From contig CAUJHF010000063.1 in NCBI GenBank assembly GCA_963204745.1, positions 49,287 through 113,286 of the forward strand: DNA of 64,000 nt, read 5' to 3'. Below the pieces are notes generated by a model, which did not search any database, was not told the origin of the DNA, and was given only the letters and a program-made list of their open reading frames with translations. This document shows, piece by piece, positions 27,872 through 34,869 of the stretch (positions are counted from its first letter, which is position 1; every line of letters starts with the position of its first letter). The DNA is from Pseudomonadota bacterium (GTDB taxonomy: Bacteria > Pseudomonadota > Gammaproteobacteria > Steroidobacterales > GCA-2729495). The position numbers and the translations under genes were made by a program.

Positions 27872-28633
27872 CTAGTTGTCGTCCAAGTCGTCCAAGTCGT
27901 CCAAGTCGTCCATATAGCTGTCGTCAACCGGTACGTTGCCGTCATACATGCGATAACGCCGGTTTTGCAGATAAGCGTCGCGTACAAACAGATATGGGTC
28001 GTAAGCGTCAAAAATCTGCTGGTCAGCGTCCAGCAGGCGTGATCGCTTTTCCACCTGATGCACTGACCAGAGGGCCCAGCTGATATCGACGTTGTCGTTG
28101 CTGAGATCGATCAGCGGGGTCAATGGTGAATCCGCAACATCGCCGGTCAGGCTGCGCAGCGTGCGGGGACCAAACAAGGGCAACACGATGTATGGACCTT
28201 CGCCCACGCCCCATTTGCCCAGGGTCTGGCCAAAGTCCTCGTCATTTTCCTTGAGCCCGACCCGCGTTGCCGGGTCAAAAAAACCGAACAGGCCTACCGT
28301 GGTGTTCAGCAGGAAGCGACCCGTATCGCGACCACCATCGCGAAACTTTCCTTGCAGGAAATCATTCACGATAGTGATCGGGTACTTGAGGTTGCTGAAG
28401 AAATTCTGGATCCCGCCCCGCATCCGGGCCGGCAGTCCACGTTCATAACCAACGGCAACCGGTCGCAACAGGTACCGGTCGCCGATGTCGTTTACCTTGT
28501 ACATCGCCCGGTTAAAGGGTTGGATCGGGTCGTAGGCGTCCTGGTTTTCAGCAGCCCTGCTGCTGGCACAGCCGCTGCTGATAATGAAGACCAGCACCAC
28601 CAGGGCTGAGCGCGATTTATCCCAGGTATTCAT
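27872..28633 (-). CDS. mlaA: Outer-membrane lipoprotein MlaA (VacJ)
   Basis: Lipoprotein that removes misplaced phospholipid from the outer leaflet and passes it to MlaC. The signal ends in the lipobox ISSGC. The MlaA body shows YDPIQPFNRAMYKVNDIGDRYLLRPVA, FFSNLKYPITIVNDFLQGK and GPYIVLPLFGPRTLR. It has 253 residues. The C-terminus carries an unusual acidic tail DDLDDLDDLDDN encoded by a 9-base tandem repeat. It overlaps the bepA stop by four bases and converges on mlaB. Confidence 0.94.
   Translation of the reverse strand: MNTWDKSRSALVVLVFIISSGCASSRAAENQDAYDPIQPFNRAMYKVNDIGDRYLLRPVAVGYERGLPARMRGGIQNFFSNLKYPITIVNDFLQGKFRDGGRDTGRFLLNTTVGLFGFFDPATRVGLKENDEDFGQTLGKWGVGEGPYIVLPLFGPRTLRSLTGDVADSPLTPLIDLSNDNVDISWALWSVHQVEKRSRLLDADQQIFDAYDPYLFVRDAYLQNRRYRMYDGNVPVDDSYMDDLDDLDDLDDN
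27877..27911. repeat. 9-base tandem repeat in the mlaA 3' end
   Basis: About four copies of a TCGTCCAAG unit in a row (the last diverging), encoding the repeated Asp-Asp-Leu of the MlaA tail. The period is a multiple of three, so gain or loss of a unit changes tail length without a frameshift. Confidence 0.85.
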
Positions 28634-30114
28634 TGTGCATTTCCGTTGTTTTGTCGCCGGGCTTTCTGTTCTCTATCTACCCATTCCTGGATCTGCTCAA
28701 GCCGCGCGTTGAAACGCGCCCTCTGCACGCTGTTCAGCCCGGGAATGGACAGGGCCAGCCGGAGCTGGTCGGCTGCCATCGTTGCATCACCCTTGATCAG
28801 GTGCAACTCCGCCATATAGTAATGCGCTTCCGCTGTGTCACCGGCAGCGCTTGCGGCCAGGGCAATCAAGCGTACCTGTTTGGCAGTCGGCGGAACATTG
28901 TTGAGCAGGTCCAGCAGAATGTGGTGGGCTTTCTTTGCATTTCCGTTCGCGAGCAGTGCTTCGGCGTAGTGCACTGTGAGCGGCACATTGCGCGGGAATA
29001 GCGCCGTCGCCTGGTCAAATATGGCAAACGCCTGGTCCCTGTTTCCAAGGGCGAGTTCTGCATTTGCCTGCCCGGTATGAAAGGGGATTATGCCCGGATG
29101 GGCTGCGCGCAGATTTCTGAACTGGTCGCATGCGATGTCGTATTGACTCAATTCCATACGCGCCAGCGCGATGCCGTAATCGGTGCCCAGATTGCCGATG
29201 CTCTTCGGATTCTGCTGTTCCCCGAGGAAAAATTCGAGTGCCTTTTCCGGCGTGGAGCTGGTCAGGACGCGAATCCTCGCCTTGGTCAGGGAATAGCCGG
29301 CAGCATCCTGGACTTCGGGACGCGGAAGCGAAGCGGCGCGTTCCCTCGTTTCCGCGATACGGTTTACGGTTACCGGATGCGTGCGCAGAAACTCGGGTGC
29401 CTGACTCGCGAGTGGTCCGGTCTGTCTGGCAAGAGTCTCGAAGAAGGCCGGCATGCCTTCCGGATCGAAGCCGGCCGCAGCCAGCACACCGACACCCACG
29501 CGGTCGGCTTCATATTCATTGGCGCGGGTGAAATTGATCTGCTGCTGTGCCGTTACGCCCTGTGCGGTAACAATTGCGCCCGTTATCGCATCGCTGCTTC
29601 CGCCTGCGGCGCCCAGCAGGATTGCACCGAGCATCGCGGCCATGCTGAGAATGCTGTTGCGCTGATTTGCATAGACTGCACGCGAGATATGCCGCTGTGT
29701 TACATGCGAGATTTCATGAGCCATGACACCGGCAAGTTCGCTCTCGCTGTTGCTTGCCAGAATCAGGCCGGAGTGAATACCGATATAGCCGCCGGGCAGC
29801 GCAAACGCATTAATTGCATTGTCGTTGACAATGAAGAAGTTGAACTGGAAATCGCCATCGTGGGCCTGGGTCGCCAGTTTCTGCCCGATGTCCTGAACAT
29901 ACTCCTGGATTTCCGGATCGCTCATGACGCGGTCGGTGTCGATCAGGCTGCGGTAGATGCTGCGACCTATCTGCACTTCGCGGTCGCGGGACAGAACCGA
30001 GTCGCCCGGGCTGCCAATATCGGGCAAATCGCTGTTTGTTGCCGGCAACGGCGGGATGATCAGGCAGGTCATCGCGACGGACAGGACGAGGTTTCGCAGG
30101 CATGGGCGGATCAT
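28630..30114 (-). CDS. bepA: M48 metalloprotease with TPR domain, BepA-like
   Basis: Periplasmic chaperone/protease for outer-membrane protein assembly. A signal peptide is followed by an M48 domain with the zinc motif HEISH (AGVMAHEISHVTQRH) and NEYEADRVGV as the third ligand region. The C-terminal half is TPR-like (ANAELALGNRDQAFAIFDQA, HYAEALLANGNAKKAHHIL). ATG at 30114 (MIRPCLRNLV) puts a proper signal peptide first; the ORF track adds 19 residues. In E. coli, BepA acts on LptD and the BAM complex. It is in an operon with bcp upstream and mlaA downstream. Confidence 0.92.
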   Translation of the reverse strand: MIRPCLRNLVLSVAMTCLIIPPLPATNSDLPDIGSPGDSVLSRDREVQIGRSIYRSLIDTDRVMSDPEIQEYVQDIGQKLATQAHDGDFQFNFFIVNDNAINAFALPGGYIGIHSGLILASNSESELAGVMAHEISHVTQRHISRAVYANQRNSILSMAAMLGAILLGAAGGSSDAITGAIVTAQGVTAQQQINFTRANEYEADRVGVGVLAAAGFDPEGMPAFFETLARQTGPLASQAPEFLRTHPVTVNRIAETRERAASLPRPEVQDAAGYSLTKARIRVLTSSTPEKALEFFLGEQQNPKSIGNLGTDYGIALARMELSQYDIACDQFRNLRAAHPGIIPFHTGQANAELALGNRDQAFAIFDQATALFPRNVPLTVHYAEALLANGNAKKAHHILLDLLNNVPPTAKQVRLIALAASAAGDTAEAHYYMAELHLIKGDATMAADQLRLALSIPGLNSVQRARFNARLEQIQEWVDREQKARRQNNGNAQ

Positions 30115-30190
30115 GCGGGACCATGATCCATGCCGGGAGACGGGGTCTGTACTCGATATGGTATGGGGCATGCGCCTGTCTGCGGCGGTG

Positions 30191-30658
30191 TCAGTCTGTG
30201 CTGATCGCTTCCAGGACTTCTGCGGCGTGGCCCTTGACGCTGACCTTGCGCCACTCGCGTTGCAATCTGCCTTCGGTATCGATCAAAAAGGTGCTGCGCT
30301 CGATGCCAAGCACCTTCTTTCCATACATGTTCTTTTCGCGGATCACGTCAAACAACCGGCAGAGTTTTTCATCCGCGTCGGACAGCAGATCGAAAGGGAA
30401 CTCGAATTTTGCCTTGAATTTCTCGTGTGATGCGAGGGAGTCGCGTGATACGCCAAGGATCACAGTATGCTTTTTCCTGAATTTCTCCTGCAGGGTGCCA
30501 AAGTCACAGCTTTCGGTAGTGCAGCCCGGTGTGCTGTCCTTCGGATAGAAGTACACCACCACATTCCTGCCACGCAGATCCTTGAGTTCGATGTGCTGGT
30601 CGCCGGTAGCCGGCAGCCGGAAATTCGGTACGACCTTGCCAACTGTAACGGTACTCAT
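30191..30658 (-). CDS. bcp: Thioredoxin-dependent peroxiredoxin Bcp
   Basis: Peroxidase of the BCP/PrxQ group. The 155-residue protein has peroxidatic and resolving cysteines five apart in TPGCTTESCDF and the preceding VVVYFYPKDS strand. It is 29 bases after gcvR, matching the gcvR-bcp order known in E. coli. Confidence 0.95.
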   Translation of the reverse strand: MSTVTVGKVVPNFRLPATGDQHIELKDLRGRNVVVYFYPKDSTPGCTTESCDFGTLQEKFRKKHTVILGVSRDSLASHEKFKAKFEFPFDLLSDADEKLCRLFDVIREKNMYGKKVLGIERSTFLIDTEGRLQREWRKVSVKGHAAEVLEAISTD

Positions 30659-32279: not shown

Positions 32280-32555
32280 ATGCTGTCAGCGAAGACGGGG
32301 TTCCTCGCACTGCTATCGATCGTCGTATTGACAGGTTGCTTTTCCTCGTCGCCGGACAAGCGCTGTGCCAAGCCGAAGGAGTATCAGCAGAGCACCAGCC
32401 TGCCCGACCTCAAGATCCCCGGGGGGTTGGAGGCACCAGACCGTTCCACGGCGATGGCCGTTCCGGCCGTGCCGCCCGGCGATCAGGCGGGCGTGATCAG
32501 CGACTGCCTGGATCGGCCACCCGACTACTTTCGCGAAGAGAAGGCGGCTGACTGA
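32280..32555 (+). CDS. Short BamC-like lipoprotein
   Basis: A 91-residue lipoprotein (ATG at 32280; the ORF track begins inside dapA). The signal ends VVLTGC. The mature part, about 72 residues, is low in predicted structure and contains EYQQSTSLPDLKIPGGLEAP followed by AMAVPAVPPG. This resembles the N-terminal extended segment of E. coli BamC (Y...L.EL..P.GM..P) that lies along BamD. The two helix-grip domains of BamC are missing. Position right after dapA, where E. coli has bamC, supports the link. Function as a BAM accessory factor is inference. Confidence 0.6.
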   Translation: MLSAKTGFLALLSIVVLTGCFSSSPDKRCAKPKEYQQSTSLPDLKIPGGLEAPDRSTAMAVPAVPPGDQAGVISDCLDRPPDYFREEKAAD

Positions 32556-32627: not shown

Positions 32628-32718
32628 GGAGAGGTGGCCGAGTGGCTGAAGGCGCACGCTTGGAAAGCGTGTTTACGGTAACCCCGTAACGTGGGTTCGA
32701 ATCCCACCCTCTCCGCCA
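32628..32718 (+). tRNA. tRNA-Ser (anticodon GGA)
   Basis: A type II tRNA: acceptor GGAGAGG pairs with CCTCTCC, the D arm reads TGGCCGAGTGGCTGAAGGCG, the anticodon stem CACGC/GCGTG encloses TTGGAAA (anticodon GGA), a long variable arm follows, and the T arm is GTGGGTTCGAATCCCAC. Discriminator G and an encoded CCA end the gene. It reads UCC/UCU codons. Confidence 0.96.
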
Positions 32719-32815: not shown

Positions 32816-32974
32816 GCACAGCGTGCAGCACTGCCCCGAGGGCGAGGGGCCGTACCCGACACCGCAGCAGGCTGCATCGTTGCAAATTTGTCGACCTGAT
32901 TGTCAACCAAGTGACCAACCCGGGCGTTGATCAAGTAGATCGTGTTACCCAGCTTTCCAACGCAGGAGTCATTC

Positions 32975-33490
32975 ATGAAAGCGTCCATTTTCAAGACCGC
33001 CGTACTTGCCGCTGTCGCCAGTACTGCCATCGCCATGCTTGCCGTCAGCGTGCCTGGCACCTCCAGTGCTGCGGATCAGGATAAGGCCGGATCCGGGCCT
33101 CGTGATCACGGTCGTGGCCATGGCCGTGGCATGCGGGGGCCGTTTACAGGCGCTCTGCGCCAGCTTGACCTGAGCGCTGAGCAGAAACAGTCGATCAAGT
33201 CAGTCATGCAGGAGGCCGGGCAGCAGGCCGCGGTTGATTGGCAGGCGAATCAGGCCAATATGGCGATCCTCGCCAATCCGGGTGATCCAGGTTATGCAGC
33301 CGCTGTGGCGCAGGCCAAGGTGAGCGCTGCTGCCATGATTCAGCGGCGCAGTGATGTAGCCGTACAGATCTACGCCATGCTCAGTCCCGAGCAGCAGGCG
33401 AAGTTACCCGCCGTGATAAGTGACATGCAGGCCAACATGCAGCAGCGCCGCGGCAAGCATCGTCCGGACGCGCCACAGACGGCTGACTGA
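32975..33490 (+). CDS. Spy/CpxP-like periplasmic protein
   Basis: Exported protein of 171 residues. A signal peptide (residues 1-33, ending TSSA) is followed by a Gly/His/Arg-rich stretch (RDHGRGHGRGMRG) and a helical region with two LTxxQ-like motifs: LDLSAEQKQSIKSVM and LSPEQQAKLPAV. This is the layout of Spy/CpxP chaperone-like stress proteins. AGGAG precedes the ATG. The histidine-rich segment could bind metal; that is inference. Confidence 0.75.
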   Translation: MKASIFKTAVLAAVASTAIAMLAVSVPGTSSAADQDKAGSGPRDHGRGHGRGMRGPFTGALRQLDLSAEQKQSIKSVMQEAGQQAAVDWQANQANMAILANPGDPGYAAAVAQAKVSAAAMIQRRSDVAVQIYAMLSPEQQAKLPAVISDMQANMQQRRGKHRPDAPQTAD

Positions 33491-33547
33491 CAGCTGTCTG
33501 TTTCGACCACAAGGATCGAGCCATCCATGCTGAATGGAGTCAGGTTT

Positions 33548-34114
33548 ATGCAGCGTCCATCCTCACTTTTCCTGGGCATCGTTCTCGCCGTGGTGACTCT
33601 GGGCGGTTGCGCGACGGCGCCGCCGCCACGCGTCAATCGCGAACCGGTGGTTGAAGCGCCGCGCCCACCGCCCGCTACGCAGGTCGTGTTCTATCCCAAC
33701 GCCGGGCAGTCGCCCGCGCAGCAGGATCGGGACCGATACGAGTGTTACCGATGGGCGGTGCAACAGACTGGCTTCGATCCGAGTGCGCCGTACGTGGCGC
33801 CGCATAAGCGCGTCGAGGTCGTTTCGACCACTCCCGCTGGCGCCAACATGGCTGCGGGTGCTGTGACCGGCGCGGTGCTTGGAGCTGCTGTGTCGCGACC
33901 GCGTGATGCGGGTGGCAACGCCATCGTTGGCGCGATCGCCGGTGCGGCGATCGGTGCGGCGGCCGACGCCAACAATCAGGCGCAGGTCGAACGCATACAG
34001 CAGCGTTACGACGAGCGTGAAGCAAGCCGCGAGGCCCAGCGTGATCAGCAGGCAGCGACATTTCGGCGCGCGATAAGCGCCTGTTTGGCCGGGCGGAATT
34101 ACACAGTTCGGTGA
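33548..34114 (+). CDS. Glycine-zipper lipoprotein with YECYxWA motif
   Basis: Lipoprotein of 188 residues (ATG at 33548; an ATG 21 bases upstream is also possible). The lipobox is LGGC. A conserved block RDRYECYRWAVQQTGFDPS precedes a glycine-zipper membrane segment (GAVTGAVLGAAVS...GAIAGAAIGAAAD), then a charged helix. The end reads ISACLAGRNYTVR. Glycine-zipper lipoproteins of this type are common in Proteobacteria and poorly understood; an outer-membrane role is likely. The next gene shares two of its motifs. It overlaps that ORF only if the latter starts at GTG 34111. Confidence 0.75.
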   Translation: MQRPSSLFLGIVLAVVTLGGCATAPPPRVNREPVVEAPRPPPATQVVFYPNAGQSPAQQDRDRYECYRWAVQQTGFDPSAPYVAPHKRVEVVSTTPAGANMAAGAVTGAVLGAAVSRPRDAGGNAIVGAIAGAAIGAAADANNQAQVERIQQRYDEREASREAQRDQQAATFRRAISACLAGRNYTVR

Positions 34115-34125
34115 GGAGAGTAGTC

Positions 34126-34869
34126 ATGAGCAAGCAGCCAGGAATCCAGTCGAAGCAGGCACGGTCGTTAGTGGCGGCAGGCGCATTCGTGATTGCTCTG
34201 ATGGTCGCCGGCATCGCGCTGTCGAACAGCGCGTTGGCTGACAATGACCGCCGCAACGGGGCCCGCAACGATTCAGCCCGAAACGACGCGGGCCACCGCG
34301 GTCAGGTGTACGACAGCCGCTATCAGCATAATCGCTATTACCCGGCACGTGGTCGGGCGGTGCCAGTGCTGCCGCGCGATTCAGTGGCCGTGCGCTATCG
34401 GGGAACGCCGTATTACATGCACGGCGGCAGCTGGTACCGGCCCTACGGCGCGCGCTTTGTGGTAATAGCGCCGCCGATCGGCTTGAGCGTGGGTTTTTTG
34501 CCGAGCTACTACAGTACGATCTGGTTTGGCAGCGTTCCTTACTACTACGCCGACGACGTCTATTACCGCTGGTACCCGGATCGGCGCAGCTATGTGGTGG
34601 TTGAGCCGCCGCCAGATTCGGCGCTGACCACGCAATCGCCGTCGTCACCGGTATCTGATGACCTGTTTGTCTACCCGATGAAGGGTCAGAGCGAGGAGCA
34701 GCAGGCTCAGGATCGCTACGAGTGCCATAGTTGGGCCGTGCAGCAGACGCACTACGATCCTACGCAGGCCGTCAGTAGTGTGGCGGATGCACAGTCCGAC
34801 GCGGCGCGCAGCGATTATTTTCGCGCGATGTCAGCCTGTCTCGACGCACGGGGTTATAGCGTGAAGTGA
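34126..34869 (+). CDS. Exported DUF6515-like protein
   Basis: Exported protein of 247 residues. An N-terminal hydrophobic segment (residues 15-38, ending SALA) is followed by an Asn/Arg-rich linker and a Tyr/Trp/Pro-rich domain (YRGTPYYMHGGSWYRPYG, GSVPYYYADDVYYRWYPD) typical of DUF6515. The C-terminal block QDRYECHSWAVQQTHYDPTQ and ending MSACLDARGYSVK closely resemble those of the preceding lipoprotein. ATG 34126 is preferred because GAGGAGA lies in front of it. No function is known. Confidence 0.75.
   Translation: MSKQPGIQSKQARSLVAAGAFVIALMVAGIALSNSALADNDRRNGARNDSARNDAGHRGQVYDSRYQHNRYYPARGRAVPVLPRDSVAVRYRGTPYYMHGGSWYRPYGARFVVIAPPIGLSVGFLPSYYSTIWFGSVPYYYADDVYYRWYPDRRSYVVVEPPPDSALTTQSPSSPVSDDLFVYPMKGQSEEQQAQDRYECHSWAVQQTHYDPTQAVSSVADAQSDAARSDYFRAMSACLDARGYSVK

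Follow-up and report, generated by a model that had tools for sequence, protein, structure and literature searches.

A dapA-linked, BamC-like lipoprotein limited to the lasso segment in an order of Gammaproteobacteria

BamC has been called the most mysterious of the BAM lipoproteins, its deletion in E. coli being mild and its folded domains mobile (PMC13067283). Residues 32-85 of E. coli BamC form a 'lasso' that contacts BamD (PMC5056442), and this lasso binds BamD and fills its putative substrate pocket (PMC5056442, PMC4890855). The importance of this segment is left unexplained by the E. coli data because deletion of bamC has little phenotype there (PMC10300371). In a published survey BamC was placed in all beta- and gammaproteobacteria, with the survey's HMM counting 187 BamC hits in 293 gammaproteobacterial genomes (PMC3359395). 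This count fits the possibility that lineages like the one described here were missed. Another described system that comes close is BamF of the Alphaproteobacteria (DUF3035), likewise a small lipoprotein of the BAM complex whose N-terminal motif resembles that of BamC and whose hosts have no full BamC; it differs in being a 17.5 kDa protein with its own C-terminal region, in adjoining lspA and in being exclusively alphaproteobacterial (PMC3359395). A literature search, from whose coverage subscription papers were mostly absent, found no description of a lasso-only BamC or of the cysteine pair reported below.

The window analysed here is a stretch of 64,000 nucleotides, and the gene of interest, which we call mini-bamC, was read in the initial annotation as lying right after dapA and encoding a lipobox and about 72 residues. 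Both points hold, as its ATG is 10 nt past the dapA stop (32269), its lipobox is LTGC and the mature protein has 72 residues. The features of the locus are as follows.

30191..30658, minus strand: bcp-like peroxiredoxin gene (PF00578), placed as in E. coli
30688..31215, minus strand: gcvR-like ACT-domain gene (PF13740), divergent, placed as in E. coli
31361..32269, plus strand: dapA (TIGR00674, 357 bits; PF00701), directly upstream of mini-bamC
32280..32555, plus strand: mini-bamC, a 91-residue lasso-only BamC-like lipoprotein, 72 residues when mature (sequence and profile matches)
32280..32339, plus strand: signal peptide with lipobox LTGC, the codon of the lipidated Cys20 at 32337-32339 (from sequence; Cys20 invariant in 47/47)
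32364..32366, plus strand: codon of the invariant Cys29, which flanks the lasso N-terminally (47/47 in alignment A2; 97/97 in the order)
32382..32522, plus strand: lasso core Tyr35-Pro81, aligned to Tyr41-Pro85 of E. coli BamC
32505..32507, plus strand: codon of the invariant Cys76, within CLxxPP at the C-terminal lasso end (47/47; 97/97 in the order)
32628..32718, plus strand: tRNA-Ser(GGA), directly downstream of mini-bamC

The open reading frame was kept from the ATG at 32280 to the TGA ending at 32555, the coordinates of the initial annotation, and its translation is MLSAKTGFLALLSIVVLTGC|FSSSPDKRCAKPKEYQQSTSLPDLKIPGGLEAPDRSTAMAVPAVPPGDQAGVISDCLDRPPDYFREEKAAD, where the bar follows the lipidated Cys20. 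The GTG start further upstream in the mechanical list of open reading frames is unnecessary, as translation from the ATG at 32280 already yields a normal lipoprotein signal peptide with its lipobox cysteine, as in BamC. E. coli K-12 has the same arrangement, bcp-gcvR-dapA-bamC, and in the order dapA adjoins 82 of 85 mini genes, the other three having no detected dapA on the available stretch. Like the Gammaproteobacteria that carry BamC (NlpB/DapX; PF06804, Lipoprotein_18) directly after dapA with gcvR and bcp divergent, the host has the remaining BAM components, its BamA, BamB, BamD and BamE scoring 760, 411, 248 and 78 bits, respectively. Mini-BamC is not BamF, since it has no DUF3035 match at E<=1 and its gene follows dapA, whereas BamF lies downstream of lspA in Alphaproteobacteria. 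Also in the neighbourhood is a gene for an M48 protease with TPR repeats, BepA-like (28630-30171, minus strand); in E. coli, BepA forms cross-links with BamA, BamC and BamD (PMC13067283). Past the tRNA, at 32942-34869 on the plus strand, lie genes for an LTXXQ (Spy/CpxP-like) periplasmic protein, a glycine-zipper lipoprotein and a DUF6515 protein.

The resemblance of mini-BamC to the N-terminal region of BamC, also proposed in the initial annotation, was borne out by profile searches. Mini-BamC matched positions 1-49 of the 323 in PF06804 (E=5e-4) with 19.5 bits, which is below the Pfam gathering score of 25 bits, as expected when only 15% of the profile is covered, and it matched positions 14-85 of the NCBIfam BamC model (E=1.3e-4). 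When its homologues were searched singly, 20 of 47 matched PF06804. The single sequence had three BamCs as its sole PDB matches up to E=1, and with the profile BamC came first (E=3.6e-6). Mini-BamC and full BamC share the lipobox and the lasso motif Y-x11-P-x5-P-x8-P ... L-x-x-(x)-PP; the near or fully invariant residues other than cysteine, Tyr35, Pro47, Pro53, Pro62, Leu77, Pro80 and Pro81, are identical to Tyr41, Pro53, Pro59, Pro68, Leu80, Pro84 and Pro85 of E. coli BamC, respectively. In class-wide searches the mini profile landed on the N-terminus of full BamCs. The AF2 model is an extended chain without a globular domain, most confident at residues 41-60 (pLDDT 89-91), and in Foldseek it gave just five PDB matches, all of them BamC chains and all weak (E 4-9, not significant). 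Judged from sequence, mini-BamC is the BamC orthologue, by its locus and by the one conserved segment of BamC that it has. It differs from full BamC in having no helix-grip domains, its C-terminus lying about 10 residues beyond the lasso end, in the extra invariant Cys29 and Cys76 and in the downstream tRNA-Ser. As it has neither the two helix-grip domains nor a score over the Pfam cut-off, we class it with lasso-only variants and not as a full BamC.

Beyond the initial annotation, the analysis brought out a pair of invariant cysteines, linkage to a tRNA-Ser gene, fusions of the lasso to NTF2-like domains and lasso-only forms in other orders. Cys29 and Cys76, which are additional to the lipobox cysteine, bracket the lasso, and both were present in all distinct sequences sampled from the order (85 short and 12 extended), but such a pair was found in none of 24 full-length BamCs. 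No conserved partner cysteine was seen among 30 BamDs of the order, which argues against an intermolecular disulfide between mini-BamC and BamD and favours a bond within mini-BamC. The simplest and most likely reading is thus an intramolecular Cys29-Cys76 disulfide. We consider it quite probable that mini-BamC is a BamC orthologue with the BamD-binding lasso alone, which would lie extended in the TPR groove of BamD and be closed by the Cys29-Cys76 disulfide. By analogy with the E. coli lasso, the proline-rich Tyr35-Pro81 segment would occupy the groove as an extended chain, and once docked it may stabilise BamD in the BAM complex, or gate the substrate pocket of BamD, or both, with an effect on OMP assembly. 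The disulfide would close the lasso to a loop and stand in for the missing helix-grip domains. If the lasso is covalently closed, as its fixed cysteines suggest, the design of stapled peptides that bind BamD could start from it.

A lasso docked on BamD could also do a job that is not that of BamC, either as an anchor for another factor or as a reporter of the periplasmic redox state through its cysteine pair, in which case relatives with an NTF2 fusion would act as effectors docked on BamD. The invariance of the pair would suit such a role, as would the dispensability of E. coli BamC for OMP assembly in vitro and the longer C-terminal part in 12 sampled members of the order, which was NTF2-like Cds6_C in the two tested. 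However, most members carry no additional domain and nothing points to redox cycling, so that we regard this alternative as rather unlikely, and a lasso with a role in BAM as the better reading.

The initial annotation had further stated that the two helix-grip domains are absent, and had named a full-length bamC elsewhere in the genome as the finding that would overturn its reading. Such a gene was sought and was absent, there being no PF06804 match over the cut-off in the host's own genome (88% complete), among 60 relatives or in any of 198 genomes of the order (each at least 90% complete). The weak matches in these searches fell on the lasso of the short genes, and a few on that of the NTF2-fused relatives. 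Split or displaced helix-grip domains were rejected, as no second PF06804 match was found in the genome or the order. There is also no room for these domains behind mini-bamC, whose frame ends at residue 91, because the tRNA-Ser begins about 70 nt after its stop. As far as can be searched, therefore, the rest of BamC appears to be truly missing. Full BamC was found in 172 of 276 genomes of the class at large, and distribution surveys stand to be corrected, since a full-length model scores genomes like these as having no BamC.

The lasso protein itself was present in 188 of 198 genomes and in 56 of 59 genera of the order, and its gene was under purifying selection with dN/dS of 0.05-0.19, so the suggestion that this segment alone is conserved in the lineage stands, and it is kept under selection. 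A whole order that keeps the lasso without the folded domains amounts to a natural experiment and suggests that selection acts on the lasso; mini-BamC is a clean 72-residue test object for its role. That mini-bamC is instead a decaying bamC, its 3' part lost and the remnant drifting without function, would account for a short frame that stops where the BamC domains would start, but this is very improbable in view of this spread, the strength of the selection, the invariant residues, the few stops inside the lasso and a fixed cysteine pair that full-length BamC does not have. Among named relatives the closest is from a MAG of the Gammaproteobacteria (JAHDYM010000018.1), and a search for related loci with the single mini-BamC protein gave one named relative, L072.

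To guard against misleading matches through the lipoprotein signal peptide, it was taken off the profile. BamC still came first in PDB (E about 0.1), and in hhalign the signal-free profile matched the mature lasso of nine full-length BamCs with 96.5% probability (E=9.7e-10). The mature-only mini profile matched 27 of 27 full-length BamC records within their first 40 mature residues, with 13.8-31 bits, and no shuffled sequence among 5,400 reached 10 bits. At the level of sequence, then, the likeness to the BamC N-terminus exceeds chance. It is scarcely credible that mini-BamC belongs to a different system, as a small LptM-like outer-membrane lipoprotein of LPS assembly, and resembles BamC through its signal peptide only, because although the A2 profile matched 9leg_D, a lipoprotein of 67 residues (E=9e-4), and 5 of 47 members matched NCBIfam LptM, the likeness to LptM-type lipoproteins is one of size and signal peptide, the mature sequences are unrelated in the profile search, the signal-free profile lost the 9leg_D match while keeping BamC first, and the dapA synteny is that of bamC.

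In 67 of the 82 order members with enough sequence, the mini gene has a tRNA-Ser(GGA) in the same orientation no more than 260 nt behind it. Outside the order 7 of 18 lasso-only genes had a tRNA-Ser so placed (4 GGA and 3 CGA), and none of 24 full-length bamC genes did. The idea that one simple deletion brought bamC next to a tRNA-Ser lying downstream is unsupported, because a tRNA-Ser was within about 7 kb of just 1 of 17 full-length bamC loci, and its anticodon was CGA. About 19 sampled genomes outside the order had lasso-only genes without a PF06804 match, most of them without the cysteine pair; one outside gene, L127 (G320), was discounted as it is cut by the contig end. Three of these loci that were examined further kept purC downstream and had no tRNA, and this, together with the mostly missing cysteine pair, suggests that the lasso-only state arose more than once. 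On a tree of dapA there were 11 changes between full and reduced BamC, a count that is just indicative because this is a weakly supported single-gene tree. Other orders have lasso-only genes that lack the cysteine pair (L113, L114, L118-L120, L122, L126 and L129-L132); almost all of them come right after dapA, and these are likely separate origins.

Mini-BamC is either a remnant of BamC or its first form, and 'reduced' is a putative direction of change, as the ancestor may have been lasso-only. A broader and tentative idea, which we hold to be somewhat improbable, is that the lasso of BamC is a portable module for docking to BamD, independent of the rest of the protein, and occurs alone as a disulfide-closed ring in a whole order, alone in several other lineages and fused to unrelated, NTF2-like domains elsewhere. 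On this view the helix-grip domains of textbook BamC would have been added in particular lineages, and the lasso-only form would possibly be the older one. Some families have about 110 further residues fused to the Cys-flanked lasso, and in the two members tested in Pfam the fused domain was NTF2-like Cds6_C, over the cut-off in L025 and below it in L028. Longer lipoproteins that start with the Cys-flanked lasso were seen at L025, L027, L028, L144, L149, L151, L172-L175, L184 and L185, some of them away from dapA.
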